In this document: piece by piece, positions 19,191 through 64,000 of the stretch
Layout: every line of letters begins with the position of its first letter
How positions within the stretch are numbered: position 1 is the first letter of the stretch
Assembly (NCBI RefSeq): GCF_000233955.1
Contig: NZ_JH376605.1
Coordinates: forward strand, 1 to 64,000
Direction of reading: 5' to 3'
DNA from: Paraprevotella clara YIT 11840
GTDB taxonomy: Bacteria; Bacteroidota; Bacteroidia; Bacteroidales; Bacteroidaceae
DNA: 64,000 bases
The notes under the pieces: generated by a model
The model's input: only the letters and a program-made list of their open reading frames with translations
Told to the model about the DNA's origin: nothing
The model's database searches: none
Made by a program: the position numbers and the translations under genes

Positions 19191-19899
19191 TTTAACAGTA
19201 TGAAAATATTTAAGATTCAGGTTGAGAACTTTAGACTACTGAAAAAATTTTCTCTTGATTTAGAAGATGAACTTTCATTAGTAATAGGTAAAAATAATAC
19301 TGGTAAAACCTCAATATTGTCTGTCTTAGACAAATTCTTAAATCAATCAGAAAAGACTAAATTCCATTTTGATGACTTTAATATTGATTTTAAGAAAGAA
19401 CTCAATGATATGATAATGAATGAAAAAACTATTATTGAGGACGCATATGTAGAGAAGGGTATTAAACTGAAGCTATTTATTCAGTATACAGAAAATTGTA
19501 ATTTAGAAAATGTTAGCCGGATTATGATGGATTTGGACCCGGATAACAATTTTATTGTTTTAGGATTTGAATATGTATTGTCATTTGATAAATATATTCA
19601 AATTTGGAAAGATTGGCGTGAATTTATTACTCATGAACTCAAAAAACAAGTTGAAAATCAACTTTATAAACCAAAAAGTATATATGATTTTCTGTGCCAA
19701 AAACATTCTGATTATTTTAGATTGTATCGGAAAACCATTGAAATTAATAAAAAAACATTAATGGTTAATGAAGCTAATTTTATTGATTTAGACAAGGAAA
19801 TGATTAGCATAAAGGATATTGTTAGTTTTAAATATATTAGTGCCCGAAGGGAGGTTGCAAATAAGGAGGTAGATAAGACCTTGTCAATGCAAACTTCAA

Positions 19900-19907
19900 A
19901 AATATAT
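19900..19907. repeat. Left target-site direct repeat of the prophage
   Basis: AAATATAT here matches 60910-60917. The real gajA sequence continues from this repeat to GAGAAAAC at 60918. It is the longest match possible (8 bp). A Mu-type 5-bp duplication could lie inside it, so the exact phage end is uncertain by up to 3 bases. Confidence 0.75.
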
Positions 19908-19958
19908 AATCCGCAAATCGAAATGTTCGCGCGTTTCAAAATGAAAAGTTCATTTCAC

Positions 19959-19971
19959 AAAACGAAGCGTA
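19959..19971 (+). promoter_or_regulatory. Putative transposase-binding site at the late end
   Basis: AAAACGAAGCGTA, 51 bases inside the late end. The same 13 bases occur at 59948-59960, and close variants lie inverted at the other end (60797-60809, 60888-60900). A repeated motif near both ends in opposite orientation is what MuA-type end recognition would need. Confidence 0.6.
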
Positions 19972-20037
19972 TAATTTAAAGCACTCTTTATTCCATTTGA
20001 ACTGGTCAATTCTAAGCTAAAAATAACAGAAAAATAA

Positions 20038-20069
20038 CTTGCAAATATCAACAAAAATCACTATCTTTA
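20038..20069 (+). promoter_or_regulatory. Promoter-like sequence reading into the phage from its late end
   Basis: TTGC at 20038 and TATCTTTA at 20062, 24 bases apart start to start, resemble the Bacteroidetes -33/-7 pair (last base of the -7 box differs). It points toward the 3' end of the tail-protein gene and would give an RNA antisense to the variable repeat. No convincing plus-strand gene follows. Confidence 0.4.
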
Positions 20070-20138
20070 CATAGTTAAATTGAGGTCGTTTACCCTCAAA
20101 TCAGTTCAGTTTTGTATTCCCCTACCCTATCAATATTC

Positions 20139-20164
20139 TAAAAAAATTCGGCCGGCTTCGCCGG
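20139..20164 (-). terminator. Terminator of the tail operon
   Basis: On the minus strand CCGGC-GAA-GCCGG is a perfect 5-bp hairpin followed by CCGAATTTTTTT. It lies about 90 bases after the stop codon of the 2183-residue tail protein. Confidence 0.75.
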
Positions 20165-20184
20165 TATTTGAATACCTTTTAAAT

Positions 20185-20208
20185 GGAATTCGGAAACCAT
20201 CCGAATCC
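20185..20208 (-). promoter_or_regulatory. Hairpin downstream of the DGR variable repeat
   Basis: GGATTCGGA and TCCGAATTCC form a 9-bp stem with one bulged base and a TGGT(T) loop, about 115 bases past the end of the variable repeat. DGR targets often have a hairpin/cruciform a short way after the repeat that raises retrohoming. It could instead be part of the terminator region. Confidence 0.45.
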
Positions 20209-20255
20209 CGTTCTTTCGTTTTAGTCGCTTCGCTCCACGCTTTGGCGCTTTGCGC

Positions 20256-23200
20256 TTACGCCACCTCGCGTATCGCCTTGTACGCTGCCACGCTTTGCGC
20301 CCGGACGATTTTGCCGCGGAAGGCCAGACGCGAGCCGATATTCGCATACGAATACGAAGCATCGTAATACGCACTCGCATTCGACACACCGCCATACGCG
20401 TGCGCACTGTAGCACCCGCGATAGACCACACGGACCGTAGCGGTGCTTATCCAGTACATGTCGGTATAGTAAGTAGAAGATGATCCGTTCAGATTACCCA
20501 CCGGAATCATGTCCATATACTTGCCGTGCGCCACGCCTGTAATCCACTGACCGCTGTCCTTCTTGCCCTGTACCATACGGATACTGCCGTCAGGCATCCA
20601 GATGCGCCATTTGCCCACGTTACCGCTGTCGTTCGGCAGATCCACGCCGTCCATCATGTCATACTTGTTGCCGTAGATGTCCTCATAGCCCAGGCAGCAG
20701 ATATTGTTCACCTGCACCACAGTCGCCTGTCCGTATTCGTCCCGACTCTTATACCAGGCATACTGGTGCACCAGGCCGTCAATCAGCGAATTCGTGATTT
20801 TGTTGTTAATGACATACGCTTCATCGTAGCCGATGGTGTCTGTCATCCCGTGTTCGGCCGTTCCGCCTGTTGTGCGGTTATTGTTATGCTGACCGGCACC
20901 GCATTGTTCCTGCATATCCCTGCGCCCGTACTTTGCATAGCTCAGGTTCGCGATGCGGCTGTGCATCAGCGCATCTATCTGCTGCATACCCCGCTGCTGG
21001 CTGTAGTAGTGGAAGTCCGTCCAGGTCATACTTGCCGTGGTCGAAGCTCCGGTGATGCAGGCACGCAGTTTACTGCCCACCACCGAACTGCCCACAACGG
21101 CACACAGATGCTCCTCATTGGCCACCCAATCCGGTTCCATGTCCTCTATCTTGTCGCTGTGGCTCAGTACCACGCAGTCAAACTCTGCCGTGTTCAGAAT
21201 GGAGAAATGCAGGGCTGTAGCACGTTCCGGAACGTCTGCTATCAGATACATGCCGGCTTCAAATTTCAAGCCGATGGTCGGCACCACAATACTCTTCAGG
21301 ATGTTTCCCTCCGCATCAGCAAACACACTGCCGATAAGCCCTGTTCCTGGAACGCTCGGGAAGCGGACACGTCTGTAACCCGACACGTCCACTTTGCACA
21401 CGGAATAAGCCTTGTCCGTCGTATAGGATTCCATCAGCGTGGGCTTGCCGCTCATGATCTTGCGTTCACCCAGCCAGCCGCCCTGTGTCTCCTTGATGGC
21501 ATCCAGTGTCAGTACCGTCGCCTCAGGCACCGGGGGCATTTCGTCCTCCGGATAACTGCTGTAGCAGGCGTACTTCTTGTTGTTCAAATAATCGTTGATG
21601 CCTTTGCTCCAGTAAAACGGCTCATACATCATCCAGTCTCCCTCGCTGCCGTCCAGCTTCGCCACCGTACAGTCGTTCATATCCTCCGCATCGGCATAGA
21701 AGTTCGAGCTTTCGTCATGCAGGGGGAAATAGGTCATCTCCCCGTCCGGGTTGTTCACTTCCACCTGCTGCCCGGCTATCTCCACCTTCCGGCTCGTGGG
21801 CATCTTCGTCACCTTGGCCAATACGCGGTGGCGCTTGGACAGGATGGCATTCACATGCCCGCTCATTTTGTACGTATTGCCGAATTTGTACCCCGTCTTG
21901 TTGTCCAGGTTCGAAACATTGGCATCGTCGGCCACGCTGTCGTCAAACTCGATCATCGTATAGGGCGGCTGCTTGATGGTCAGTTCCGGATAACGGGCGG
22001 CATACTTCTCCAGTTCCTCATCGGCCAGATACTTCGTCAGGGTCAGCTTGCCCCTCAGTCCCGAATGCCGGTCATCCACGGCACCCGTCTGTGTATACGT
22101 TCCGTAGTCGTAATACTTCTTCAGCAGGGTTCCGTCGTCTTCCCGGTCTATCTCCAGCACGAAGCGCTCCAGCTTGCCGCTGCCGTTCAGTCTGGCCTGG
22201 TGCAGGCGTTCCAGCATAGCGAACCCGTCGATGCCGGGGCAGTTGGTGTAGCGGTAGCCCCGCACATTATTGATCCCTTCCAGTATCAGGCCACTATCGG
22301 ACAGCTTGGTCAGATATTCCAGGAACAGTTCCTCAATCGTGTCCGGCAGGCATAACTGCACAACGGGCGCACCGGTGGCCAGTTTCACACGGGTCAGCCC
22401 CGTACCCCTCACGTCCAGTTTCTTCAGGCGGCCCTGCCAGCTCAAGTCCAAAGTGGCCACATTCCCGTTGTCCCCGTTCCGGGCCAGCCGGTTGTTCCGC
22501 ATGTTCACTTCTTCCAGAAGCAGCATACCATTGGTCGAAGCCATGAACGAGCCGTTCCGGTAACCGCTGGCTTTCTCCACGCTCATGTCGAGTTTTACCA
22601 GTGAGGTCAGCAGACCGAAGTTGAAGCCGATTGCGAACGCATCCTCGTGCCATACCAGCTCCTTGATTTTGGCTGCACCGATAATCTTCAGCGGGTCGTT
22701 CTCACCGAAGGCACGGGTCAGCTGCAGGGAATGGAGCACGTCCGCATCCACCACGCCGCTGTCGGCCTGCACGCCGTTGCTGGTGGAGAGCTGCACACGG
22801 TACGGGATGGTCAGCCGGTACTGCATCGGTTTCAGTTTATAAGCCTTGTCCAGCGATGCCGTACTCTGGTAGAACTGGGCACCCAGCGTGGATACATAGC
22901 CGTACTCCACCTGCTTCAGGTCATACCGGCGTTGGATGAAGTAGTTCCGGTGTGCTTTCAACGAACCCTTCAGACCGTAGATTTGCGGATAGGTCTGTTT
23001 GGCACCGTCAGCACCCACCGGCATTTCGTTCAGGAACGGGTAGATGTATTTGAAGATGCCGGACTTGTTATAGAGGCGTGAGCACCACTTCTTCATCTGT
23101 TCGGTATCGAAATGGTCAATGGCTTTCTGGATACTGAAGGCACTCATGAAGCTTGCGCCCCCGTTCCATCCGCTCACCATAATCTCCACAATCATGTCCC

Positions 23201-26200
23201 AGCAATTGGCCACGATGAGGTTCCACAGCCACGAGTTATGACCCTGCATCACATAAGCCCCGTCGCGCTTCGTCTGGCGGTTGTCGTCATACTTCCCGGT
23301 CAGGAACGACTTGTTGTCAGAACCGAGCTGGCAGTCGCCGTCATAATAGTCAATCGACCATTTCACACCGTCCCATGTGCGGATAAGCATGTTCTTCGCA
23401 AGCTGGTCCACGCCGAGGTTGAACTGCACGTACAGATAGTAGGCAATCAGGTGGGGAAGGTCGAAATACTTCCCGGCCTCTTTCCTGAACGTATCGCTCT
23501 GCCACTTGGCGGTAGGGAACTTGTCGCCGTCGTCCTCATAGTCCACCCCCTCGAACGAATGGGATTCCGTGCTGTAAACCATGTTCCTGCCCGCAGGCGT
23601 TTCCTTTACGCACCGGTAGACGAAACTCATCATGCGGTCGGTGGCCTTGTACATCTTGTCGTACTTGTCACCGGTACCGAGGTGGTCTTTCAGGTTCGGT
23701 TCTTCCTCCGCGTCACCGCCTCCGTCCGACCAGAAGGTATCTTTCGGATGATTAAATTCCAGTCCTCCGTCAAAGTTGTAGTCCATGAAATCCTTATGCT
23801 CCGGTTCGGTACTCGGCAACCAGTGGAACAGGCACAGCGGATTGGAGTTGTTCAGCGTCTCGAAGCAGACGGGCAGGTACTGCTTGTGTCCTTCCTCGTC
23901 GGCTTCCAGGTAGTTCAGCGTGTCGCCCTCGCCCCATTTCTCGCCGCCGATGGTCTCATCCTGCCCGAAGATGGGGTAGCTGTCGCTCTTCTCGTTGTTC
24001 ATGTTGTACTGGCCGTAATAGGTCAGGTCTTCGTCGGCACTCTTCGCTACGAACAGGTCGCACGGCAGGCCGTCGATGGCCGAACGGTAATCATCCTCCA
24101 GCCCATGGTCTTTGGCGTAACGCTGGGCAGGCGTAAGCAGCCCCATCTCTTTCAGTCCGTCATTGATAAGCTTCGCACCTCCGGTATTGGTGGTCATGGA
24201 CGAGTCCGAGAAGTCGCATTTGGAACATGCCAGCTTCGCGCCTACCGAGTTCCTGCGTAACTTGAAGAGATTTTTTTTGCCGGTAGTTACCACCGGATTC
24301 TTCTGCCTGCCGTTTCCGTCAATCTCCCCGTAGCTCAATGTAACCGTCCAGCCGCTTGCCGTCTTCTGGAAGTAGAAACGGAAGTTCTTTCTGGCATAGT
24401 TCACGGAAGAAGTACCCTGAATACGGACATATACGTTGGTAAGGATAAAGTCAAGCGTCCTGTCCTCTCCGTTATAGAAACGGACCTCCCTTACCAGTTT
24501 ATTGGCCTTCTTGTCGTTCAGCTGGGCCAGTGCATCCACCACGTTCAGCGTGTCGCTCTCGCTCGGAACCTCACTGCCCACGCTGCCCGTGCCTATCAGT
24601 ACCAGGATCGAGTTCCGGCGCTTCTTCATCAGCCCCATCAGCTTCTCCATGCTCACCGTATCTCCTTCATTCAGCACGCGGTTGTCCTCATCCAGTGAGC
24701 GCACGCCCGGTTCCCCGTCGGCATCCTCCAGGTGGTTGCGGTCCACGATGTAGTTGTTCAGCACCTCGTCCGAGGTCAGCGCCTTGTTATAGATACGCAC
24801 GCTCTTCACGTTCAAGTCGGCACCTGCCGACTTAAATTCCAACTGGCTCTGAATGTCAAAATTCACCTTGTCGAGCCACTTGGAAGCAGCCGACTCTTCA
24901 CCGTTCACATAGAAACCGATCAGCGTGCGCTGTTCGTTGGTCTGCACGTTCGGATAGAACACGTAGGTAATGCGGATATTCGTACCCGGCTGGAACTTGG
25001 TACCCACCGAGTCTTCATAGCGCAGCACCTGTCCGGCATCCATCGCCTCGGTCACCACACCGGTCAGGAACTTGGCCTCTTCCGGAGTCACAATCAGCCC
25101 GTACCGGTTGCCGTTGTCCAGCTGCCCCAGGCAGGTGATCAGCTCGGCATCCGTATCCGTCACGTTGGTCGTGCTGTATTCTATCTCCAGCGTCATGCCC
25201 ACGTCACGGATGGCAAATCCCTCGGGCTTGTCCGCCTCGTTGAAGGGGCGGTAACCGCCGTCAGCGGTCAGGGTCATACCTGCACCACCGGCCAGCAGCA
25301 GGCGGTCCTTGTGCCAGCCGCTACCGGCACCATATTCGTTCACGCTCCACAGCACGTCCCGGAACTCCATACGCTTGTCACCGCTCACCCAGCTTGCCGG
25401 GTTGTTTTCCGTGTTGCTTCGCCCGAAGGCGTCAAACGTACACACGGCATCCGGTGCCAGCGTGGCTTCAATGTCCGGGTGCGATGTGGTGTTCACCTGC
25501 ACCTCAAGCACGGCATCGCCGCATGACACACGGTAGTCCAACGGTTCCACGTTCACGTTCGTCCGTCCGTAGCTGCCGGTCTCACCGCGTTGCAGCAGGT
25601 CTTCCTTCACCACGCTGCCCCGGTCGGTCACTTTCACACGGGCCGTATACGCATCGCGGTCATAGCCGGCATACGTGAAGTTCCATGCCGTGAACTGCTC
25701 TGCCTCCAGCACCGGGTGTTTCCAGTCACGCTGGAACCCCGCTGCCCGGTGGCTGAACATCAGGCCGGCATACGCTGTCACACCTCCGCCTGCCTTCAGC
25801 AGCGTAATGTAATGCACCCGGCTCACCACACCGGAGTTCTCATGCTGCGCGTAGGCTTCCACCACGTTCGTACCCTCCTGCATCTGTGTCAGGGGGATGG
25901 TCACGTTCTTCTGCTGCACACCGCTGCCGGCCGAAAGACCGAGGGTAAAGGCCTGTCCGCCGTTCACGCGGTAGTAGATGTTCTTCTCACCGCTCGTGCC
26001 CTTGGCAGTAAAGGGGATGTTCACGTCATTTTTATATCCCCCGTCGGCCAGCCCGTTGCCCGCCGAGTAGGTGGTCTCCAGCTCCATGGCCACCATGGTC
26101 ACCTTGGCCGTGGCCGTCTTCATCAGCGTGCCGTCCTGGTAAGTTGCCTGCGCTTCCACCTGTACGGTATAGGCAGTGGCATCCTTCAGGTAGGGCGAAG

Positions 26201-26807
26201 CGTCAAAGGTATAGCTCTGTCCGGCTGTAACGCCCACAAACTCCGCATCCCGGAACTCACTGATGACGGTCGAACCGCGTTTCACGATCACGCGGGCTTT
26301 CAGGTCGCTGTAGCCGTCCACCGTACCGCCACCGGCAGTGCCCACACCTACGGAGTATTTCACCACAAAGCCGCTGCCCAGTGCCAGATACTGCGAGGCG
26401 GGAAGTCCCGCACCGCCGCTGTCCGTCAGGTCGATGTTCACCACCACCTTGTCATCGTCCGTGTACTTGGAAAAGCGCACTTCCTTCGAGCTCTCGCCGC
26501 CCTGGTTGTCCTTCTGCTTGACGGTCATCACGTACTGGGTGCCGTCCTCGCTGTCCTGCACATCCACGTCCGTCACCGTACCCACCATCGCATCGAACAC
26601 CGTTCCGGATGTAGGAGGTTTCGTCTCGCCGCTCACCAGTTCCTCGGTAGGGGTACGGTTTGACAGTTCCTTCTTCAGGAACGCTTCGATGTCATCGCCT
26701 GCATAGGCATGATAGGTGCCGTCCGGCTGTTTCTGATTCCATGGTGTTTCAAGATTCATCGGATGTTCAGTCGCGTTGATGATTCCGCTTATTTTCCTTT
26801 TTGCCAT
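20256..26807 (-). CDS. Large tail/receptor-binding protein, DGR target
   Basis: A 2183-residue protein, the last and largest gene of the tail operon. The N-terminal part has Ig-like beta repeats (to about residue 350). Residues about 490-690 look like a LamG/concanavalin domain. A CotH-like segment follows (VRIQGTSSVNYARKNFRFYF near 800, IDYYDGDCQLGSDN near 1156). Leucine-rich-type text lies near 1400-1500. The C-terminal domain (about 1950-2183: CLGYEDIYGNKYDMMDG, then VGKWRIWMPDGS, YWISTATVRVVYRG) has the look of a C-type-lectin fold. Residues 2125-2162 are encoded by the variable repeat; diversified residues are C, Y, S and H, as expected of a ligand-binding face. It probably recognises the host surface; the receptor is unknown. 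Confidence 0.93.
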   Translation of the reverse strand: MAKRKISGIINATEHPMNLETPWNQKQPDGTYHAYAGDDIEAFLKKELSNRTPTEELVSGETKPPTSGTVFDAMVGTVTDVDVQDSEDGTQYVMTVKQKDNQGGESSKEVRFSKYTDDDKVVVNIDLTDSGGAGLPASQYLALGSGFVVKYSVGVGTAGGGTVDGYSDLKARVIVKRGSTVISEFRDAEFVGVTAGQSYTFDASPYLKDATAYTVQVEAQATYQDGTLMKTATAKVTMVAMELETTYSAGNGLADGGYKNDVNIPFTAKGTSGEKNIYYRVNGGQAFTLGLSAGSGVQQKNVTIPLTQMQEGTNVVEAYAQHENSGVVSRVHYITLLKAGGGVTAYAGLMFSHRAAGFQRDWKHPVLEAEQFTAWNFTYAGYDRDAYTARVKVTDRGSVVKEDLLQRGETGSYGRTNVNVEPLDYRVSCGDAVLEVQVNTTSHPDIEATLAPDAVCTFDAFGRSNTENNPASWVSGDKRMEFRDVLWSVNEYGAGSGWHKDRLLLAGGAGMTLTADGGYRPFNEADKPEGFAIRDVGMTLEIEYSTTNVTDTDAELITCLGQLDNGNRYGLIVTPEEAKFLTGVVTEAMDAGQVLRYEDSVGTKFQPGTNIRITYVFYPNVQTNEQRTLIGFYVNGEESAASKWLDKVNFDIQSQLEFKSAGADLNVKSVRIYNKALTSDEVLNNYIVDRNHLEDADGEPGVRSLDEDNRVLNEGDTVSMEKLMGLMKKRRNSILVLIGTGSVGSEVPSESDTLNVVDALAQLNDKKANKLVREVRFYNGEDRTLDFILTNVYVRIQGTSSVNYARKNFRFYFQKTASGWTVTLSYGEIDGNGRQKNPVVTTGKKNLFKLRRNSVGAKLACSKCDFSDSSMTTNTGGAKLINDGLKEMGLLTPAQRYAKDHGLEDDYRSAIDGLPCDLFVAKSADEDLTYYGQYNMNNEKSDSYPIFGQDETIGGEKWGEGDTLNYLEADEEGHKQYLPVCFETLNNSNPLCLFHWLPSTEPEHKDFMDYNFDGGLEFNHPKDTFWSDGGGDAEEEPNLKDHLGTGDKYDKMYKATDRMMSFVYRCVKETPAGRNMVYSTESHSFEGVDYEDDGDKFPTAKWQSDTFRKEAGKYFDLPHLIAYYLYVQFNLGVDQLAKNMLIRTWDGVKWSIDYYDGDCQLGSDNKSFLTGKYDDNRQTKRDGAYVMQGHNSWLWNLIVANCWDMIVEIMVSGWNGGASFMSAFSIQKAIDHFDTEQMKKWCSRLYNKSGIFKYIYPFLNEMPVGADGAKQTYPQIYGLKGSLKAHRNYFIQRRYDLKQVEYGYVSTLGAQFYQSTASLDKAYKLKPMQYRLTIPYRVQLSTSNGVQADSGVVDADVLHSLQLTRAFGENDPLKIIGAAKIKELVWHEDAFAIGFNFGLLTSLVKLDMSVEKASGYRNGSFMASTNGMLLLEEVNMRNNRLARNGDNGNVATLDLSWQGRLKKLDVRGTGLTRVKLATGAPVVQLCLPDTIEELFLEYLTKLSDSGLILEGINNVRGYRYTNCPGIDGFAMLERLHQARLNGSGKLERFVLEIDREDDGTLLKKYYDYGTYTQTGAVDDRHSGLRGKLTLTKYLADEELEKYAARYPELTIKQPPYTMIEFDDSVADDANVSNLDNKTGYKFGNTYKMSGHVNAILSKRHRVLAKVTKMPTSRKVEIAGQQVEVNNPDGEMTYFPLHDESSNFYADAEDMNDCTVAKLDGSEGDWMMYEPFYWSKGINDYLNNKKYACYSSYPEDEMPPVPEATVLTLDAIKETQGGWLGERKIMSGKPTLMESYTTDKAYSVCKVDVSGYRRVRFPSVPGTGLIGSVFADAEGNILKSIVVPTIGLKFEAGMYLIADVPERATALHFSILNTAEFDCVVLSHSDKIEDMEPDWVANEEHLCAVVGSSVVGSKLRACITGASTTASMTWTDFHYYSQQRGMQQIDALMHSRIANLSYAKYGRRDMQEQCGAGQHNNNRTTGGTAEHGMTDTIGYDEAYVINNKITNSLIDGLVHQYAWYKSRDEYGQATVVQVNNICCLGYEDIYGNKYDMMDGVDLPNDSGNVGKWRIWMPDGSIRMVQGKKDSGQWITGVAHGKYMDMIPVGNLNGSSSTYYTDMYWISTATVRVVYRGCYSAHAYGGVSNASAYYDASYSYANIGSRLAFRGKIVRAQSVAAYKAIREVA
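20324..20435 (-). repeat. DGR variable repeat (VR)
   Basis: 112 bp at the 3' end of the tail gene. Aligned with the template repeat at 46616-46727, it has 101 identical positions and 11 differences, all at template adenines (7 A to T, 3 A to G, 1 A to C). The last 24 or so bases (GCGAATATCGGCTCGCGTCTGG in VR direction, end at 20324) are identical and GC-rich, as expected of an initiation-of-mutagenic-homing site. The gene continues for 21 codons past it, so the VR is internal to the coding frame. Confidence 0.97.
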
Positions 26808-26832
26808 AATACTGTCCTTTTATAATAATCAT

Positions 26833-27027
26833 TCATTTATCAGTTTTACTGCTACCGTTCCATGCGTCCGATCCGTTCCACGGCTCGTCGCCTTTCCAGT
26901 ATCCAAGTCCGAAACAGCTGCTTATCGCAGACCACACCAGTCTTGCCCCGGCATAGACTGCCGACAGGGCACGTTTCCCCACATACGCAGCCGTTATTTC
27001 CTTACCGCCTATGGTTATCATCGTCAA
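26833..27027 (-). CDS. Small tail-operon protein
   Basis: A 64-residue protein (IGGKEITAAYVGKRALSAVYAGARLVWSAI, then a Trp/Gly/Ser-rich end). Short proteins with this KEITAAYVGKR pattern recur next to tail-fibre genes in Bacteroidales phages. The function is unknown; a small virion or fibre-base component is possible. It overlaps the upstream gene by 4 bases and lies 25 bases before the large tail gene. Confidence 0.7.
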   Translation of the reverse strand: MTMITIGGKEITAAYVGKRALSAVYAGARLVWSAISSCFGLGYWKGDEPWNGSDAWNGSSKTDK

Positions 27028-27743
27028 TCCTCCTCATAAATCAGATACAGCGTATTCGCATCCTTGTCCTGCAGCGCCTCGTAAGCTTCCCCGCTCATCA
27101 CCTCATGCCGGTAGGCCAGCAGTCTCAGGCTGCCGCCTGTTCCGGTATATACGGCATCACCCAGCAGGTAGAGCTTGTCCGGCAGGATGGCTGTCCGGTC
27201 CGCATTCATGAATATGCCGGCAGGAGGCACACCCGCCACATCCCAGTCCCCGTACAGGGTGGAGTCCATGTGGTAGGCGAACTTCCCGGCATCCGCTACA
27301 TACACTACGCTGCCGCCCGGTTTGGTACTCTTGTCAGGTAAAACGTTGCCTGTTTCCATCCATGAGGAAAAGCGTGCGGTAGCCCCGCCGATGGCTGCTG
27401 CCGTAGTCTGTTCCACCTTGGCAGCGGCGTTTTCTGCCTTGGCTGCCGCTTCGTTGGCCTTGGTGGCCGCTTCCGTGGCGGCCTGGGTCTTTTCCTCCAG
27501 TCCGGCTACGGCTCCTTCCGCTTTCTTGGCGGCAGCCTCGGCACGGGCGGCGGCATCGCTCGCAGGCTTCCCTATCAGTTCCAGGGGGACGTTCACCATC
27601 TTGCCGTCCTTCTCCCCGGGCAGTGATTTCACACCGCTCAGCGAGGTGACGGTCTCCAAGTCCTCCACGCCGGTAGAACTCTGGAGTACACGGTCCAGCA
27701 CTTCCTGAACCAGTTCTTCTTGTGTCATTTCTGCCATACTCAT
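27024..27743 (-). CDS. Tail-fibre-like protein with alanine-rich coiled coil
   Basis: A 239-residue protein. After a short helical N terminus, residues about 70-120 form a heptad-like alanine/lysine coiled coil (AAARAEAAAKKAEGAVAG and similar units), typical of trimeric phage fibres. The C-terminal part is beta-rich and short repeats of Leu/Tyr follow (AILPDKLYLLGDAVYTG). Position between the tail hub and the DGR-target protein suggests a structural fibre or connector. It overlaps both neighbours by 4 bases, so translation is coupled. Confidence 0.75.
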   Translation of the reverse strand: MSMAEMTQEELVQEVLDRVLQSSTGVEDLETVTSLSGVKSLPGEKDGKMVNVPLELIGKPASDAAARAEAAAKKAEGAVAGLEEKTQAATEAATKANEAAAKAENAAAKVEQTTAAAIGGATARFSSWMETGNVLPDKSTKPGGSVVYVADAGKFAYHMDSTLYGDWDVAGVPPAGIFMNADRTAILPDKLYLLGDAVYTGTGGSLRLLAYRHEVMSGEAYEALQDKDANTLYLIYEED

Positions 27744-28027: not shown

Positions 28028-28040
28028 ATATATCTGTTTT

Positions 28041-52935: not shown

Positions 52936-52953
52936 GATTCTTGTTTTTTGGGG

Positions 52954-53136: not shown

Positions 53137-53142
53137 ATCCTA

Positions 53143-53911: not shown

Positions 53912-53922
53912 ATCGACTAATT

Positions 53923-54396: not shown

Positions 54397-54397
54397 T

Positions 54398-56147: not shown

Positions 56148-56185
56148 AATTCTAACGCTGTTTTAATGTTGTTCTAATTCTATTC

Positions 56186-58225
56186 TTACATGTCACTGAT
56201 GGCCCTCATTGCCTCGCTTATTCCGGAGTGCCATTCATAATCTGATTCCGGATCTGCCGACAATTCGGCTGGCAAATCATCGGATAGTTCCACCGGGGGA
56301 AGTTCCAGTTCCTCTTCCGGGTCATCCGTTGGCTGATCCGGTGTACCGGTTCCCACCTTTCCGATGGCGTGGTCATTGAGGTATTTGCTGAAATGACTCA
56401 GAACTTTGTTTTGCTCTGTATAGGCTACCCGGTCTTCTTCGGTCTGTTCTGCCATCACCCGGTTGTAAGTCACTACCGGACGAACCTTGTCAAGGTAGCG
56501 GTCGTTCTGGTACAGGAAGACATCCGTAGGCTTGCCCTCTTCATCCGGCAGATAGTAAGCCGTCACCTTGCGGTTGTTTGGTTCCAGCTGCTCCAGCACT
56601 TCCGGACCGCTCAGCCACCAGTCCGCATTTGCCACACGTACTGTGGAATTTCTACGAATACTGGTATCTACCTTTTCTCCGATATATCTGCTCAAGGTCA
56701 GTTTATCAAGCGGTCGAAGGGTCGGATTGATTTTGGCTACGAGCACATCCCAACGGGTCATTCCGGGATATTTCTTTTGATTGGGGTGAAGCGTATTGTT
56801 CCATTCTTCACAATCGCGCCGGTCGTCCGCCACAAGCTCTTCAAACGTATAATACTTTCTGTCTTCCCAGGTGTGGTTGCTGCTGTCACTCACTTTCTTC
56901 TGGTCCACCCGCCGTGCACCTTTGTTATGCCAGCGGCCAATGGCTTCATGGTTCTTATGTGCTATGGTTGTCTTGAACGCACCGTTCAGAGCTTCAGCAT
57001 ATTTCTCCTGTGAGTTCTGTGGGGCACAGAAATGCACAAACTTAAATACCTCACCTGCCTTCAGGAATCCTTCTTTATACTTGCTCATCAAGTGCTGCTC
57101 CACCTCAATACCGGCTGGAATACCCCATCCGTTGCGTTCGATGAGCCGGAACATATCACGAAAACAGTCCACTACCAAGGCATCATCCTTATCCCGCCCG
57201 TAGGCCAGCCCGATACGGCACTGGCTCACCACATCATAAGCATAATAGGCATGCACATACTCGCCGCCTTTCATCCGACGCGGCAAATCCACGTCATCCA
57301 TCGTTATTTGTGACAGGGAGAACTTACCACCATGGCGGTGCATGTGCGGCATTTGCTCATGATAGAATTCCATACGTCCACGCAAGGCTTTTTCTATCAG
57401 CAGCTGGCTTGCCGGGTTGTTCAGTATGTTCCGGATAGTGCTTTCGCTCAGTTCTTTCGGTTCCCCGTTCTTATCCGTAAAGTTTTCCGGATTGAATATC
57501 TCTCCTGTTTCCAGATCCCATACTTCCAGTTCACCGCATACAAACGACAGATACATTTCATGCACATCACTGCCGTATGGTTGGTTGGGAAGTACTTTCA
57601 AACTCATCACCAGGCGTTCGTCCATGTGAGTTACCTTCCGTTTGTTCTGGTTGCCGAATTTTCCGGTTATCAAACATTCATAACCGTATTGCTTATATTC
57701 GTTCACTTTCTTGCGGAAACGAAGGGTACTGGCAGGAAGATCATGACCAAAGTCTTCGCGTAGGGTCTCGATGGTGGTGGCCATCATGTCCCAGTTATAT
57801 TTTTCACCCATCAGTTTTCGGTAATCATTGCTTCTGTTATAAAGCTTGATACAAGTATTCAACACGGAAGCATTCACCGCATATTTCCGGGCAAGTTCGT
57901 CTGTTGCTCTGTTGCTGGAAGAATGAGAAGCCCAATCCAAAAAATAGGCTACTGCAGCCTGATCCAGCACATAGTTTGAGAGTATCCAGTGGCGAAGTGC
58001 CTGCTCTGTTCCACCGGGGTTGTCTTCCTTCACCCGTTCCAGACACTCGGTAGGCAGGCTATTGAGGGCGACCAACGCGCAATTTCCAGCAGCACCTCCA
58101 CCACGACGCACCACCTTGATACGGCCACGGTTCACCCAGTTCCTGTAGCAGGATTCGGTGATATAGCCGCCATCTATGAGCTCACGTGCAGAAATACACT
58201 GTATGTTACCGTAATACACCAACAT
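56186..58225 (-). CDS. Mu-like DDE transposase (MuA)
   Basis: A 679-residue transposase that pairs and cuts the phage ends and joins them to target DNA. An N-terminal HTH (ISARELIDGGYITESCYRNWVNRGRIKVV) precedes end-binding regions; the catalytic core shows ITMDDVDLPRRM (first Asp), GIPAGIEVEQHLM (second acidic place, Glu where Asp is usual) and SQEKYAEALNGAFK (third, Glu). The C-terminal acidic part probably contacts MuB. The frame is complete. It follows the HTH gene by 9 bases. Whether Glu at the second position is catalytic cannot be judged from this sequence alone. Confidence 0.95.
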   Translation of the reverse strand: MLVYYGNIQCISARELIDGGYITESCYRNWVNRGRIKVVRRGGGAAGNCALVALNSLPTECLERVKEDNPGGTEQALRHWILSNYVLDQAAVAYFLDWASHSSSNRATDELARKYAVNASVLNTCIKLYNRSNDYRKLMGEKYNWDMMATTIETLREDFGHDLPASTLRFRKKVNEYKQYGYECLITGKFGNQNKRKVTHMDERLVMSLKVLPNQPYGSDVHEMYLSFVCGELEVWDLETGEIFNPENFTDKNGEPKELSESTIRNILNNPASQLLIEKALRGRMEFYHEQMPHMHRHGGKFSLSQITMDDVDLPRRMKGGEYVHAYYAYDVVSQCRIGLAYGRDKDDALVVDCFRDMFRLIERNGWGIPAGIEVEQHLMSKYKEGFLKAGEVFKFVHFCAPQNSQEKYAEALNGAFKTTIAHKNHEAIGRWHNKGARRVDQKKVSDSSNHTWEDRKYYTFEELVADDRRDCEEWNNTLHPNQKKYPGMTRWDVLVAKINPTLRPLDKLTLSRYIGEKVDTSIRRNSTVRVANADWWLSGPEVLEQLEPNNRKVTAYYLPDEEGKPTDVFLYQNDRYLDKVRPVVTYNRVMAEQTEEDRVAYTEQNKVLSHFSKYLNDHAIGKVGTGTPDQPTDDPEEELELPPVELSDDLPAELSADPESDYEWHSGISEAMRAISDM

Positions 58226-58234
58226 AGCCGCCTC

Positions 58235-58609
58235 CTATCTCAATGCCGATGCAAACGCTTGGATTTGGTTAATATCGGCAACCATCACATGCTCGTAAGT
58301 CTTCACCGTTTCTCCCTTGAATATTACCTGACCGCTACCATCATTACGGTCAAGCTCTATCAAGGCACCGTTCGGACAGTACTGACGCATCACATTGTCA
58401 TAATCATGGAAAGTTTCTATTTCCGGAATAACAACCATCACAATACCGCCACGATCCATGGCCAACTTACGGATCTTTGCAGAAAGTTCGGAGTTGCCAC
58501 GACGGTCATCAAACCGGATAGCGTTATAAACAGTCTTCTCTGTCACGTTGAGTGCCTTTGCGATAAAGTCGCGGTCGGCTTTCGTAATGTGAATGTACCT
58601 CTTGTTCAT
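58235..58609 (-). CDS. HTH protein of the early operon
   Basis: A 124-residue protein. The first 40 residues (HITKADRDFIAKALNVTEKTVYNAIRF) are a helix-turn-helix in the place where Mu has Ner. The C-terminal part is alpha/beta (IVMVVIPEIETFHDYDNVMRQYCPNGALIELDRNDGSGQVIFKG). Similar proteins occur before transposase genes in Bacteroides Mu-like phages. It probably regulates the early promoter; this is inferred from place. It starts 26 bases after the tRNA-like element. Confidence 0.75.
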   Translation of the reverse strand: MNKRYIHITKADRDFIAKALNVTEKTVYNAIRFDDRRGNSELSAKIRKLAMDRGGIVMVVIPEIETFHDYDNVMRQYCPNGALIELDRNDGSGQVIFKGETVKTYEHVMVADINQIQAFASALR

Positions 58610-58635
58610 ATCTCACTTGTTTTAATGATTAATAT

Positions 58636-58684
58636 TGGGGGGAGTCCGGGGAATCGAACCCCGGCACAAGAACCATGCACTCCC
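58636..58684 (-). ncRNA. tRNA-like element (acceptor stem, T arm, CCA) without anticodon arm
   Basis: A 49-base minus-strand segment. In order: GGGAGT (58684-58679), a small hairpin GCAT-GGTTCTT-GTGC, a canonical T arm (CGGGG-TTCGATT-CCCCG), GACTCCC pairing with GGGAGT, one C and an encoded CCA. There is no room for a D arm plus a normal anticodon arm, and I find no matching 5' acceptor strand further upstream. It lies in the 133-base gap between two early genes. It is not a normal tRNA gene; it may be a remnant, a tRNA mimic or an RNA processing site. Confidence 0.55.
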
Positions 58685-58742
58685 GTGTGTCTTTCCACAC
58701 CGTCACCCGTCTCTTAACGCCTTCCGGGTTGTCACGCTGGGT

Positions 58743-59159
58743 TTACTGTTGTCCCTCAACCTTTTCACCTTTTTCAATAATCCCAAGAAGTATAGTGAAT
58801 TTCTCACGTATCTTCTGGTTCACTTCCAGTTCCAACGTATGCGCCAAATTTGAAGCCGCACTGGTGCTGTTCTTGCGGATGCTTCCGGTAAGAAGACTAT
58901 CAGTCAGACTGTTTATCTTGCTTTCCATGTATAACTTTACATCATCATGGCTACCGGCAGATAAAACCACCTTCAAGGCACGGTAACAGGAAAGTTCACG
59001 TTGCGTCTTGTACATATCCTCGGCATACCAGCAGAAGAAATGTTCAAAATCCTCATTCATGTCTTTGGTGTACTTGTCAGCCTGTCTTACCAAATCATCT
59101 ATATGGGTCTTTACAGAACTGAATACAAAATCCCAGCAACTCATTTTCTTGTTTTCCAT
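58743..59159 (-). CDS. Hypothetical early protein
   Basis: A 138-residue helical protein with Cys/His residues (SCWDFVFSSVKTHIDDLVRQADKYTKDMNEDFEHFFCWYAEDMYKTQREL). It lies 8 bases after the first early gene. No family recognised. The helical layout is unlike Mu early proteins that I know. Confidence 0.7.
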   Translation of the reverse strand: MENKKMSCWDFVFSSVKTHIDDLVRQADKYTKDMNEDFEHFFCWYAEDMYKTQRELSCYRALKVVLSAGSHDDVKLYMESKINSLTDSLLTGSIRKNSTSAASNLAHTLELEVNQKIREKFTILLGIIEKGEKVEGQQ

Positions 59160-59167
59160 AATCTCAC

Positions 59168-59374
59168 TTATTTAAATTCGTTTATAATCGGTTTCAAACT
59201 CACGCCGTAACAACTCATCAGGCGGCGGATAAGGTTCTTCACATAAAAATCAGGTGCGGAAAACACAATCCCGGTCTCTTCGGTATATCTGAAGCTGATA
59301 CCGTCCATCATCAACACGTAAGCCACCTTGTGCTTCACGCTCTGTGTCTGCCATTCTTTTATTTCTTCGTTCAT
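59168..59374 (-). CDS. Hypothetical protein, first gene of the early operon
   Basis: A 68-residue protein (EIKEWQTQSVKHKVAYVLMMDGISFRYTEETGIVFSAPDFYVKNLIRRLMSC). No family recognised. It starts 78 bases after the -7 box of the early promoter, so it would be the first product after induction. Confidence 0.7.
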   Translation of the reverse strand: MNEEIKEWQTQSVKHKVAYVLMMDGISFRYTEETGIVFSAPDFYVKNLIRRLMSCYGVSLKPIINEFK

Positions 59375-59416
59375 TTTCTTTAATCCTTAAAATTCGCTAA
59401 TCACATGCCTTTTTCG

Positions 59417-59459
59417 TATATTTGGCGCGGTGTTCCTTTTTGAACACGCTGCAAATATA
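59417..59459. promoter_or_regulatory. Face-to-face promoters and operator of the lysogeny switch
   Basis: TATATTTG (plus, 59417-59424) and TATATTTG (minus, plus-strand coordinates 59452-59459) match the -7 consensus. Between them lies GTGTTC-N6-GAACAC (59430-59447), a perfect inverted repeat fit for a dimeric repressor. The plus promoter faces the repressor at 59508, the minus promoter faces the early operon. Each transcript runs over the other promoter, so the two would compete. Confidence 0.7.
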
Positions 59460-59507
59460 TAGAATATTTTCGACACTAAAAAGTTTTATGTAGATAATTT
59501 ACGACTT

Positions 59508-59915
59508 ATGACGAATATTTCCGACAGGATTGCAATCCTAATTAAAGAAAAAGGTATCAGTACAAGGGCACTTGAACAAGCTATTGGGTGCTCGAATGGA
59601 GTAATTTCAAGATGCATTAGCAAAGGAACAGATATATCAAGTTTATGGGTGTCGAAAATTATCGAAATACATAATGATATAAACCCTACCTGGTTACTTA
59701 CTGGGAAAGGTGATATTTACTATAATACATCATCTACAACAACACAAACAACCGAACTATCCTCTCTCCTTGCCTTAATTAGAGAAAAAGAAGAAATCAT
59801 CAGGGAACAAGATAGAGAAATCGGACGCTTAGAGGAACGAATCCGGCAAATGACAATCGAAAAGGAAAAACATGTATCGGATGCGCCCATTTCCGGTACT
59901 GCAAATGTCGGGTAG
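59508..59915 (+). CDS. Phage repressor-like protein (HTH plus coiled coil)
   Basis: A 135-residue protein. The N-terminal XRE-type HTH (SDRIAILIKEKGISTRALEQAIGCSNGVISRCIS, about residues 5-38) is followed by a pattern typical of CI-like phage repressors in Bacteroidetes (SLWVSKIIEIHNDINPTWLLTGKGDIYY). The C terminus is a coiled coil (LIREKEEIIREQDREIGRLEERIRQM), probably for oligomer formation. It is divergent from the early operon with the operator between. It has no protease domain, so induction is not by the LexA-type self-cleavage. Confidence 0.87.
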   Translation: MTNISDRIAILIKEKGISTRALEQAIGCSNGVISRCISKGTDISSLWVSKIIEIHNDINPTWLLTGKGDIYYNTSSTTTQTTELSSLLALIREKEEIIREQDREIGRLEERIRQMTIEKEKHVSDAPISGTANVG

Positions 59916-59947
59916 GCGGATTTACTATTACCATACACCGGTGATGG

Positions 59948-59960
59948 AAAACGAAGCGTA
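59948..59960 (+). promoter_or_regulatory. Internal copy of the end motif
   Basis: AAAACGAAGCGTA, identical to 19959-19971 at the other end, about 960 bases inside the early end. It lies between the repressor stop and the GAATATCCA repeats. Confidence 0.5.
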
Positions 59961-60009
59961 CCCCCTATCATCCCCCATGATGTCCCCCTCCCAAGCAATC
60001 CCCCTCCCC
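59961..60009 (-). other. G-tract cluster (possible G-quadruplex) after the repressor
   Basis: The plus strand has six C-runs of 3-5 (59961, 59972, 59984, 59990, 60000, 60006), so the minus strand has six G-runs within 49 bases with short loops. It could fold into a G-quadruplex on the minus strand. It begins 46 bases after the repressor stop and directly after the motif at 59948. Confidence 0.45.
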
Positions 60010-60175
60010 TACCATTATATAAGGGCATAAAGGCACTGATATTGGGGAATTTAAAAAGTAAAACGTGAAAAATGATAGGTTTTTAGGGGGGGGCTATCAA
60101 ATAAAAAACAAGGGGTATTTTTAAAATTGTGGTATTTTAGCATGTCTGTATCGCACACCGCCAAAACCCTATTTT

Positions 60176-60231
60176 GAATATCCAGTTCTATAAAAGTGAA
60201 TATCCACTTTGAATATCCACCTGAATATCCA
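60176..60231 (+). repeat. Four GAATATCCA direct repeats
   Basis: GAATATCCA at 60176, 60198, 60211 and 60223 (steps 22, 13, 12). The cluster lies about 680-730 bases from the early end, between the repressor and the 80-codon gene. The place resembles the operator/transposition enhancer of Mu, which repressor and transposase both bind. Confidence 0.6.
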
Positions 60232-60258
60232 GCGTCAAAAAAGACCGATTTCAAGCAC

Positions 60259-60286
60259 AAAAAAGGGGAGGTATAACCACCTCCCC
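60259..60286 (-). terminator. Terminator of the 80-codon gene
   Basis: GGGGAGGT/ACCTCCCC form a perfect 8-bp stem with loop; the minus strand continues TTTTTTGTG. It lies 48 bases after the stop of the gene at 60334-60576. Confidence 0.75.
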
Positions 60287-60333
60287 ACACCGGATCATTC
60301 TAAAGCCGTTTTTATTGCCTTTTTAGCCGCTTA

Positions 60334-60576
60334 TTATTCGTCTGATACATTTCCACTACGCCCGCAAGAAATGAGCGTAGATTGCTTTATTATAGCCTTT
60401 TTGGTGCATACAGTCCCGTTACCAGATAATCCTGCATGAAGCAGATAATTCTTCGTTGCGCCCACCTGTTCTGCCGTCAAAACAGTATAAATGGCCGTTA
60501 TACTACTAAAATACCAGTCTTTCCGCTTTGTTCCTTCTATTCCGTGTGTCAAATGTATATGTATTACCTTTGCCAT
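60334..60576 (-). CDS. Small conserved hypothetical protein
   Basis: An 80-residue protein (MAKVIHIHLTHGIEGTKRKDWYFSSITAIYTVLTAEQVGATKNYLLHAGLSGNGTV, then TKKAIIKQSTLI). Small proteins of this type, beginning AKVIHIHL with a YFSSITAIYTVLT block, recur in Bacteroidales mobile elements; the function is unknown. I use the ATG at 60576, because a TATATTTG promoter box lies about 20 bases before it and the longer frame to 60639 would include the promoter. It is a monocistronic gene at the early end. Confidence 0.72.
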   Translation of the reverse strand: MAKVIHIHLTHGIEGTKRKDWYFSSITAIYTVLTAEQVGATKNYLLHAGLSGNGTVCTKKAIIKQSTLISCGRSGNVSDE

Positions 60577-60909
60577 AACTAATAATATTTTGTCGCAAAT
60601 ATACCAAATAACTATTATATGGAATAATTTAAGCAGCATTATATCAAATAATCAGGCACAAAAAAAGCAGCCGCAGCTGCCACTCACTCCCCCACCAGAA
60701 TCAACCATGTAAGCCTTATGTAAACCCAATTAAACCTATCTGCAAATCTGTATGCCTAAAAAGCACATAAATGTAGCTGCAAATTAAACCCACGTAAACG
60801 TTTCGTTTTGCAGAGCCATCCACTCATATTTTGCATAACATTTTGTATATCAATAGGTTTGATATTCTTTCCGCTCAATCCTCAATATACGTTTCGTTCT
60901 GTGCCCCAT
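60577..60909. promoter_or_regulatory. Early-end non-coding region with promoter and transposase-site motifs
   Basis: It holds the minus-strand promoter box TATATTTG (plus coordinates 60597-60604) of the 80-codon gene and two inverted copies of the end motif: AACGTTTCGTTTT (60797-60809) and TACGTTTCGTTCT (60888-60900), the latter ending 9 bases before the phage/gajA junction. No gene is seen. Between 60610 and 60790 I see nothing more than AT-rich sequence and some short repeats. Confidence 0.6.
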
Positions 60910-60917
60910 AAATATAT
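60910..60917. repeat. Right target-site direct repeat
   Basis: AAATATAT, the partner of 19900-19907. It is followed by GAGAAAAC, which continues the gajA frame (KIYEKTETNPIQNK). The phage sequence before it ends ...GCCCCAT. Confidence 0.75.
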
Positions 60918-62303
60918 GAGAAAACAGAAACAAACCCTATACAGAATAAGGCTGTTGAAGATTTTAAAGATAAACTAAGTGAAACAGATAATCAATTAAG
61001 TAGTATATATATAGATTTATTTAAAGATATAATTAAGAAAGTTGGTGATTTTGGTGGTGTTAAACCCAATGAATCAGAAATAGAAATTATTTCAAATTTA
61101 CAGCATAGGGAATTATTAAAAGGAAATACGACTGTTGTTTACAAACATGATGAGAATAATAAACTACCGGAACATTATAATGGATTAGGTTATATGAACC
61201 TAATATGTATGATTTTCGAGATAGAAATACTTATTCAAGAATTTAAGCGCGAAAAAGAGAAAAAGCCAGCTGATATAAATTTGTTGTTTATAGAAGAACC
61301 GGAAGCTCATACGCATCCTCAAATGCAATATGTATTTATTAAGAATATTAAAAGGTTACTAAAGGATGGTATTCAAAGGGCAGATGGTGAAGCAAGAAGT
61401 TTACAATATATAATAAGCACCCATTCTTCACATATTGTTGCGGATAGTGATTTTGACGATATTAAATATCTTAAAAAGGAAGGTGATAATAATGTCATTG
61501 CAAAAAATCTGAAAGATTTGAAGAAAGAGTATGATAAAAAAACATCCCAATATCAATTCCTTACCCAATATCTTACTATTAGTCGAGCTGAAATATTTTT
61601 TGCAGAAAAGGCTGTATTGATTGAGGGTGATACTGAAAGGATGTTAATTCCAACAATGATGAAGAAAATAGATATTGAGGAAGCTGCAACACACAAGGCA
61701 AAAAGTACAGAAGATGATTATTTGCCTTTATTATCTCAAAATATCTCTATTGTTGAAGTCGGGGCTTATTCACAGATATTTGATAAGTTCATAGAGTTCC
61801 TAGGAATAAAAACGCTTATTATAACTGACCTTGATGCAATAGGGGCTGACAATAAAAAGTGTGAAGTAGTTAATGCTGTAGCATACTCAAATGAAGCCTT
61901 ATCGCATTATTTCAATAATCCCACATTAGCAGATCTGAAAACTTTTTCGCTTCAAGATAAATTATTTAATAATATAGGCGGATGTTGGAAAAATCAATCT
62001 AATGGTAGATTATGTGTTGTTTATCAAACTAATGAAGCTGATTATAATGCTCGTAGTTTTGAGGACGCATTTATTCATCTTAATAGAAACTTTGTAAAAA
62101 ACAATAAAGCTGATTTTAGAGGATTGCAAAATAAGGATTATTTTGACAATCCTAATAAGAACGCATATATTTTAGCTCAAGAATGTATTAAAAAGAAAAC
62201 TCATTTTGCTTTGGATATTTTATACCATAGTGATGAAATGTTAAGTAATTGGCAAATTCCAGCATATATTAAGGAGGGATTATTATGGTTGAAACAAGAT
62301 TAG
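60918..62303 (+). pseudogene. gajA: 3' part of gajA-like gene (TOPRIM nuclease half)
   Basis: 461 codons after the insertion. The ATPase is completed by NLLFIEEPEAHTHPQMQ (Walker B) and STHSSHIVADSDFDDIKYL. The TOPRIM nuclease follows with VLIEGDTERMLIPTMM (acidic Glu motif) and LIITDLDAIGADNKK (DxD motif). OLD-type nucleases of Gabija bind and nick DNA when nucleotides are low. The first in-frame ATG is at 61194, which would give a piece of 369 residues that lacks the Walker A motif. It overlaps gajB by 19 bases. Whole-gene joining restores 697 codons. Confidence 0.9.
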
Positions 62304-64000
62304 GAGTAGAGCAAGTAAAAGATGAGTTCCAACAAATAATGGAGCATATTGCTAATGGTGACAACTTTTTACTAAGTGGTGGAGCTGGTAGTGGTAAAAC
62401 ATATTCTTTAGTTCAAGTAATCAAGAAGGTTATTGAAGATAATCCAACCTCGAAAATAGCCTGTATGACATATACAAATGCGGCAGTTAAAGAGATAGAA
62501 GAACGTGTTAATCATAAGAATTTGAATGTTTCCACTATTCATGATTTTTTGTGGGATAATATCAAGCATTTTCAAAAGGAATTAAAAATAGCAATTATTA
62601 CTTTGTCCAATGATGAGAATGTAAATAAGATAAAAATAGATGGATTAAGTAAGGTGTCAAATGATTATTTTGACAATGGAGAGGAAACTGTTAAAATACA
62701 ATATAAAGAATATTTAAGGTTAAAAGATGGAATTATATCACATGATGAATTACTTGTGATAGCTGATTATATGTTTGCTAAATATTCTAAACTTTGTGAT
62801 GTCGTAAAAGATAGGTATAAATTTATTTTTATAGATGAATATCAAGATACTCATAAAGAAGTTATTAGAATTTTGTTAGAGCATTTCCCGAAGAGCAAAA
62901 AACATACGATAATAGGCTTTTTTGGAGATACAATGCAGTCTATTTATGATGACGGTATTGGTAATATTAATGAATATAAAGGGGATGAAAAAGGGAAAGT
63001 GAGAGAAGTCAAGAAAACTCAAAATAGAAGAAATCCTCAAAAAGTAATAGCATTAGCGAATAGGTTGAGAACGGATGGAATAGTGCAAGTACCTTCAAAT
63101 GATATTTCAGCCCCTAATATGATTGACGGAAAAGTAAAAGAAGGTGAAATCATATTTATTCATTCAACAAATGGAGACATTTCGCGAGTAGAACAATTCT
63201 TAACCGAAAAATACAGCTGGAGTTTTTCTGATACAAAAAGAACAAAAGAACTGAATCTTACCCATAATTTAATTGCTGACAAAGCGGGTTTTAGAACATT
63301 GATGGATATTTACGATAAAGACCCTATTATGGGATTAAAAAAGGATATTTTACAGAAGATTAAAGATAACGAAAAGCAAGGGAAACCAGAAATACATATT
63401 GATGATAGCGATACGTTTGATATTGTAGTAGACAAATTTCAGTTAAAAAATAGACAGCGGCAATTGAAAAAAGATATATTGTTATCTAACCCTCATAATG
63501 TTGAGCTATATAATCAATTGAAAAATAGACCTTTTTCCGAAGTACGGAGAATGTATTTTGATAAAGACCAATTGATAGATGATAAAAAACAAGATGATGA
63601 TGACGAAAATAAGAAAGGTTCTAAAAGAGATAATCTAATAAGGCATCTATTTAAAATTCAAACGAACATATCTCTATATGTCAATAAACAATATAATGAT
63701 TTTTTAAGGGTTACGGATTATAACCAAATACATACAATTAAAGATAAAAGAGAATTAAAACAAAATATAGAAAGTCTGATTGAGGTAGGAGATAAAACGA
63801 TTGAATATGTGATAAATGATGCTCATAGAAAAGGGATTTGCCTGATTGATGAAAAATTAGAAAACTTTTTGATAGAAAAGGAATACATATATAATCAAGT
63901 GAAAAACGTCAAATATGCTGAATTCCAAAAGTTGTATGCTTATTTGGAGGGACAAACACCTTTTTCAACTCAGCATAAGACTAAAGGTGCTGAATTTGAT
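62285..64000 (+). CDS. gajB: UvrD/PcrA-like helicase GajB-like, incomplete at window end
   Basis: 572 codons to the window edge with no stop. SF1 helicase motifs: Walker A LSGGAGSGKTYSL (30-42), motif Ia CMTYTNAAVKEIEERV (60-75), motif II FIFIDEYQDT (DE at 184-185), motif III GFFGDTMQSIYDD, motif IV QNRRNPQKVIALANRLR, and the start of motif V (FSTQHKTKGAEFD) at the edge. In Gabija, GajB works with GajA. A strong Shine-Dalgarno AAGGAGG precedes the ATG, which is rare in Bacteroidetes and also overlaps the gajA end. The insertion is upstream, so gajB may be poorly expressed unless a phage promoter reads through. Confidence 0.9.
   Translation, partial: MVETRLGVEQVKDEFQQIMEHIANGDNFLLSGGAGSGKTYSLVQVIKKVIEDNPTSKIACMTYTNAAVKEIEERVNHKNLNVSTIHDFLWDNIKHFQKELKIAIITLSNDENVNKIKIDGLSKVSNDYFDNGEETVKIQYKEYLRLKDGIISHDELLVIADYMFAKYSKLCDVVKDRYKFIFIDEYQDTHKEVIRILLEHFPKSKKHTIIGFFGDTMQSIYDDGIGNINEYKGDEKGKVREVKKTQNRRNPQKVIALANRLRTDGIVQVPSNDISAPNMIDGKVKEGEIIFIHSTNGDISRVEQFLTEKYSWSFSDTKRTKELNLTHNLIADKAGFRTLMDIYDKDPIMGLKKDILQKIKDNEKQGKPEIHIDDSDTFDIVVDKFQLKNRQRQLKKDILLSNPHNVELYNQLKNRPFSEVRRMYFDKDQLIDDKKQDDDDENKKGSKRDNLIRHLFKIQTNISLYVNKQYNDFLRVTDYNQIHTIKDKRELKQNIESLIEVGDKTIEYVINDAHRKGICLIDEKLENFLIEKEYIYNQVKNVKYAEFQKLYAYLEGQTPFSTQHKTKGAEFD

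Follow-up and report, generated by a model that had tools for sequence, protein, structure and literature searches.

A Mu-like, hankyphage-like prophage splits the Gabija gene gajA on a conjugative element of Paraprevotella clara

What becomes of an antiphage defence system on a mobile element when a temperate phage settles inside one of its genes? The question is raised by the first 64 kb (the window: the whole 64,000-nucleotide stretch analysed) of contig C29 (NZ_JH376605.1, 177,041 bp; genome total 4.23 Mb) of Paraprevotella clara YIT 11840. There, as judged from the sequence, the 697-codon Gabija gene gajA of an integrative and conjugative element (ICE) is interrupted by a complete-looking Mu-like prophage related to the hankyphages. 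After the transfer genes come a small HTH gene, gajA codons 1-235, the 41,006-bp prophage, the remainder of gajA, gajB and an AlbA_2 gene. Very probably a hankyphage-type phage inserted itself, by transposition of the MuA/MuB type, after codon 235 of gajA, which with gajB would be cargo of the ICE, duplicated the four bases AATA and switched Gabija off.

The two parts of gajA were recognised by reading frame, PADLOC and Pfam. The left frame contains 236 open codons from 19200 to 19907, and as an open reading frame (ORF) it extends 24 codons into the phage, to 19979; the right frame (EKTETNP) stays open between 60918 and its stop at 62303. The 5' part (19200..19904, plus strand) comprises codons 1-235 with the Walker A motif, and the 3' part (60915..62303, plus strand) runs from codon 236 to the stop, with the second ATPase half and an OLD-like TOPRIM domain detected by Pfam. 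The insertion point is within Pfam AAA_15. PADLOC GajA model PDLC00079 (702 positions) matches the left part over positions 1-240 (E 8e-80) and the right part over 230-701 (E 5e-203). The next gene, gajB (62285..64000, plus strand, continuing on the contig to 64228), matches PADLOC GajB PDLC00135 (E 6e-239) over residues 10-647 and encodes the UvrD-like helicase adjoining gajA. An OLD-type ATPase and a TOPRIM domain in one gene, as in GajA, are found in the uninterrupted relatives described below and in the two halves together, the gene being split in the window. Besides this gajA locus, a protein search of the host genome detected only a distant OLD-like gene (33%).

A search of genome contigs with the gajA right part was used to collect relatives, the best 80 of 122 being considered. 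The two nearest among the matches listed are L042 (98% protein identity), a 5,384-bp contig of a metagenome-assembled genome labelled Bacilli and perhaps mis-binned, and L043 (90%), from Bacteroides sp. GM023. Both carry a whole gajA of 697 codons with SKIYEKTETNP, a single AAATATAT and the empty site CAAAAATATATGAGAAAACAG present once; when they are aligned with the window, its left flank ends and its right flank begins at adjacent bases. A gajB of 647 aa stands behind gajA in both, the two genes overlapping by 19 bases. The gene order of L042 is that of the window (coupling protein, 98% over the contig end; HTH gene, gajA, gajB, start of AlbA_2), and L043 has the coupling protein (86%), HTH gene, gajA, gajB, a DUF3945 relative (37%) and a topoisomerase (75%). 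More widely, the stop-to-stop frame is unbroken, 672-757 codons long and includes a P-loop in 77 of the 78 homologues (from the best 80 of 122) with enough upstream DNA; the exception, L085, has 514 codons and no P-loop was found in it, and L061 and L103 were left out as too short to test.

An earlier note on this DNA, made without database searches, had proposed that the prophage interrupts a Gabija gajA, that its removal restores a 697-codon frame with the ATPase and TOPRIM parts in order and gajB next, and had named an uninterrupted gajA with SKIYEKTETNP as the thing to look for in sister ICEs. The Gabija assignment agrees with the PADLOC matches of both halves and of the next gene, and the interruption and the joined frame are borne out by the two empty sites; whether such sites might fail to encode the joined protein was examined, and L042 and L043 do encode it. 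The note's placement of the break after codon 236 needs correction. The break follows codon 235, and the left-side Tyr236 codon is phage DNA.

This correction concerns the phage ends. The note took AAATATAT as the boundary repeat, with junctions at 19907 and 60918. The copies are indeed present, at 19900-19907 and at 60910-60917, and 60918 is simply the first base after the right copy. As an 8-bp target duplication, AAATATAT was rejected: related phages end in TATAATCCGC on the left and GTGCCCCATA on the right, with variants, and these ends place the prophage at 19905..60910, leaving the 4-bp duplication AATA at 19901..19904 and 60911..60914. The remaining bases of the 8-mer are phage ends that coincidentally equal the target. 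The exact phage-end patterns occur once each in the host genome.

The 4-bp duplication recurs among relatives of the phage. Where both ends were recognised on one contig, the host 4-mers are identical in seven of seven pairs: in genomes G082 (GAAA and CTTA, the CTTA pair across the contig end), G226 (TTAC) and G298 (GATA, wrapped), and in the uncultivated viral genomes (UViGs) 2799112767 (GAGG), 2654588202 (AATC) and 2878915049 (CTTG). Where a genome has a single left and a single right end on separate contigs, the 4-mers are identical in 6/6 (G030 CTTC, G157 GATG, G385 ATAG, G044 GGTC, G270 GAAT, G098 AATA). Two left and two right ends match pairwise in G331, and the two contigs of UViG 2825925402 share TTTG. 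In G106 a single left end was recognised and two right ends, of which one has the same 4-mer; in G354 five left ends and no right end were recognised; and UViG 2923973727, with its ends on different contigs, is a mismatch (left GAAG versus right CATT). A loosened right-end pattern was rejected, as it also matched sites within the transposase gene, and the stricter pattern was used to collect host pieces.

The prophage encodes a MuA-type transposase (56186..58225, minus strand; phrog_310, E 2e-48) and a MuB-type transposition ATPase (55269..56147, minus strand; phrog_296, E 2e-41), while a Pfam search of the MuA-type protein gave no transposase match at E 0.001. Together with the lack of a fixed site and the short constant target duplication (4 bp, in many different genes), these proteins agree with the Mu-like identity given in the earlier note. 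Profile matches further detected the major head protein (38715..39794, minus strand; phrog_267, E 9e-44), the terminase large subunit (41405..42964, plus strand; phrog_38, E 6e-86), the portal protein (43436..44941, plus strand; phrog_113, E 6e-67), an amidase and a repressor-like protein (phrog profiles). A human faecal phage record contains 10.6 kb matching the prophage at 99.7%.

The reverse transcriptase gene (46931..48232, plus strand; Pfam RVT_1) is probably part of a diversity-generating retroelement, for which we detected a candidate template near 46611 and a candidate variable repeat at about 20381-20440, where the 2183-aa left gene of the phage ends; the two are 55/60 identical and the differences are A-specific. 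No direct repeats of 60 bases or more were found within the prophage. It also carries a DNA methyltransferase gene (49867-50706; PADLOC MTase_II, E 2e-60), which is kept together with the preceding 212-aa gene in phage relatives. Elsewhere in the host genome a second MuA-type transposase gene (G000:C65:105206-107179, 44% identical) perhaps marks a second transposable prophage.

The surrounding element has the relaxase, coupling protein, Tra transfer genes and RteC of a Bacteroidales ICE (conjugative transposon), in accordance with the earlier note. We detected traM (5229..6542, minus strand; Pfam Transposon_TraM, E 1e-44), the VirB4-like traG (9478..12180, minus strand; P-loop_TraG, E 2.5e-216), a mobC-like gene (15230..15652, plus strand; MobC_2, E 6e-55), the relaxase gene (15637..16887, plus strand; Relaxase, E 2e-28) and the conjugation coupling protein (16905..18911, plus strand; YWFCY and TraG-D_C), whose matches lie upstream of gajA in L042 and L043. 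The small HTH gene (18990..19190, plus strand; HTH_3) is likewise present in both. RteC is encoded beyond the window, at 73213-74058 of contig C29. No integrase turned up among the genes scanned, no search having been aimed at integrases; the contig begins at window position 1. Beyond RteC, at 74709-77766 of the contig (L009:16709-19766), there are a MatE transporter, an AraC regulator and a weak match to the chloramphenicol-acetyltransferase family (42 bits).

How would the insertion affect defence? GajA is described in the part of PMC10781630 cited here as a two-half ATPase domain and a Toprim domain, assembled with GajB in a 4:4 complex, and substitutions at the GajA-GajB interface are described there as reducing defence. 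The insertion would leave the Walker A motif on one side and the second ATPase half with the TOPRIM nuclease on the other; therefore no whole GajA would be made and Gabija would be off in the lysogen. gajB would be intact but severed from its upstream region. With its immune gene hit, the lysogen would stop attacking the phage, so that the insertion might persist; this step is drawn from the relatives only. Insertion into an immune gene may let such lysogens live.

Several points weigh against this account. The loss of defence is read from the split of gajA, whose 3' piece might be expressed from a promoter in the phage. According to the portion of a preprint considered here (PMC12407980), Gabija blocks the Mu-like phage JBD30, the Mu Gam and GemA-type proteins licensing the blocking, and neither an established D3 prophage nor its induction comes under attack by Gabija; therefore, within what that portion reports, Mu-like phages can be Gabija targets, yet a lysogen need not have a broken gajA. 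The selective part of the account is further weakened by the AT-rich target preference of the phage and by the absence from the prophage of a Mu Gam gene, no PF07352 match being found on contig C29 at E up to 10 (Gam was not taken as defining a Mu-like phage), with a GemA-like match only below the cut-off (12 versus 27 bits, E 1.04).

The selection reading for Gabija is an analogy with relatives of the phage that sit in cas9. In G082, a single 2.92-Mb contig, the phage is inserted after codon 301 of cas9 (L477-L479, L528); cas9 is followed by two frames that hold the places of cas1 and cas2, judged from position and size alone, and by a 10-spacer array. Its spacer 2 agrees with the prophage within cas9 at 29/30 positions and with a second prophage of the family at 30/30, both in the terminase gene. 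In G385 the phage is inserted after codon 7 of cas9 (L480, L481, L527), and 13 spacers extend up to the contig end. They gave no match to the two phage pieces first compared; a genome-wide search, made with spacer 2 alone of the 13, gave a 30/30 match on contig C2 of that genome. C2 (18,240 bp) carries terminase, portal, head and tail genes of the same phage family. Because one transposase, one left end and one right end were found in G385, C2 is probably the middle of the prophage in cas9, the contig not being linked to the junctions in the assembly. In 2/2 cas9 insertions, then, a spacer in the array beside the cut cas9 matches this phage family within the genome concerned.

A wider set of insertions was compiled from 132 distinct junction sides, which include both sides of some insertions. 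We retained 47 insertions and the window, each insertion being represented by a single host piece whose open frame reaches roughly 100 aa. Left out were the second sides of insertions already counted, junctions with a frame below 100 aa (L419 stayed in despite its 83 aa), L403 (whose end motif is not strict) and L530-L535 (translated only). The couples L253/L455 and L258/L323 share 4-mers, and each couple may represent the two sides of a single insertion; merging them gives 45 and the window. Pfam was applied to 40 of the 47 pieces and PADLOC to all 48. At E<=1e-20, among the best 25 of 85 PADLOC families, defence genes are hit in at least 6/48 insertions (6/46 after merging): Cas9 (L350, L358), a type I methylase-specificity gene (L393), a type I restriction subunit (L443), a cytosine methylase (L433) and GajA (window). 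Weaker defence-type assignments are a specificity subunit (L419, E 7e-12) and an N6 methylase (L342, by Pfam, with no PADLOC match at 1e-10).

Genes of mobile elements were also hit, namely TraG (L394) and RteC (L232), both in UViGs with a phage MuA 100% identical to that of the window, an integrase (L397), a resolvase (L332) and the tape-measure gene of another phage (L300). The last (L300:9470-11893) holds a near relative of the phage, with a left-end protein 98% identical. The other insertion pieces have an ordinary Pfam name or none.

For a control, 120 points were spaced evenly over 40 stretches taken from G082, G226 and G257, which yielded 112 gene pieces. At the same threshold PADLOC detected at least 1/112, the best 25 of 45 families being all reverse transcriptases with one member each; the remaining 20 families might conceal further control members. 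Fisher's test gives p=0.003 for 6/48 versus 1/112, p=0.009 without the window (5/47) and p=0.05 with three control members; with n=46 or 45 the values are 0.003, 0.008 and 0.04, respectively. The excess of defence genes is only suggestive, because the pattern was seen before the test was framed and the insertion and control sets come from different genomes.

We tentatively propose, with a confidence that falls slightly short of an even balance, that transposable phages of Bacteroidaceae settle in immune hosts by landing in the immune gene that attacks them. Such insertions would be favoured among the lysogens that survive, so that the position of a prophage may record the defence it has defeated. 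The insertions in gajA, hsdM and hsdR would then be innate-immunity counterparts of those in cas9.

The strongest alternative opposes only this selective part. The phage may simply prefer AT-rich, dispensable DNA, so that the low-GC gaj genes were a likely landing place and the loss of Gabija a by-product. Host GC within 100 bp of 78 junctions is 38.9%, versus 44.0% at 1-1.5 kb (difference 5.1 points, SE 1.0), A or T fills the two central positions of the target 4-mer in about four-fifths of the 132 junction sides, and the gaj genes have 28-29% GC within an ICE whose transfer genes have 51%. Such a neutral hit leaves the phage-matching spacers at both cas9 loci unexplained and does not readily account for the surplus of defence genes over the control. 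We find it nearly as credible as not, and for the Gabija case itself neutral hit and selection appear about as likely.

It is very unlikely that gajA had lost its function before the phage inserted. Nothing direct favours this; both gajA parts are open and 97-98% identical at the protein level to the intact relative, and the GajA and GajB models match over nearly the full length. Still less probable is a reversible switch, in which the prophage would leave precisely under some conditions and restore gajA, as in the active lysogeny of other phages that leave regulatory genes reversibly: the short exact target duplication and the intact-looking phage ends would suit it, but relatives in many different genes point to transposition without a fixed site, and precise excision is rare for Mu-like phages.

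The insertion in gajA is a natural example, proven at the sequence level, in which a temperate phage has split an immune gene that lies on a mobile element. The wider pattern would make the settlement of temperate phages in immune hosts countable, by comparing prophage positions with the targets of the host defences. A literature search, judged by titles and the beginnings of abstracts, gave no report of a prophage inside gajA and none in which a Mu-like prophage interrupts cas9 beside a matching spacer.

That transposable phages cause mutations is textbook knowledge, and phage Mu shares with the phage described here the transposase-driven, non-site-specific insertion that mutates genes. For Mu a 5-bp target is described, in contrast to the 4-bp duplication here. 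The closest known systems are hankyphage p00 and its relatives, transposable phages of Bacteroides (PMC12135933), which are alike in MuA/MuB-type proteins, reverse transcriptase and many insertion sites, p00 itself being a distant relative (terminase 32% identical; DNA 72-73% identical along 1.4 kb of the left end). The sections of that account used here demonstrate genome-wide insertion of hankyphages, contain no interrupted defence gene and name riding on a plasmid or ICE as a possibility only, which now gains a concrete example, in addition to the traG and rteC insertions. The Gabija GajA-GajB pair, in the cited part of PMC10781630, likewise combines an OLD-type ATPase/TOPRIM nuclease with a UvrD-like helicase encoded behind it, whereas gajA is here split by a prophage. 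Finally, the DMS3 lysogens of Pseudomonas aeruginosa PA14 that lose CRISPR, as far as the cited excerpt of PMC11406979 describes them, are alike in that a Mu-like prophage faces a matching CRISPR and the conflict is partly resolved by transposition; there the setting is laboratory evolution with mainly large transposition-linked deletions, whereas here natural genomes carry direct insertions into the immune gene.

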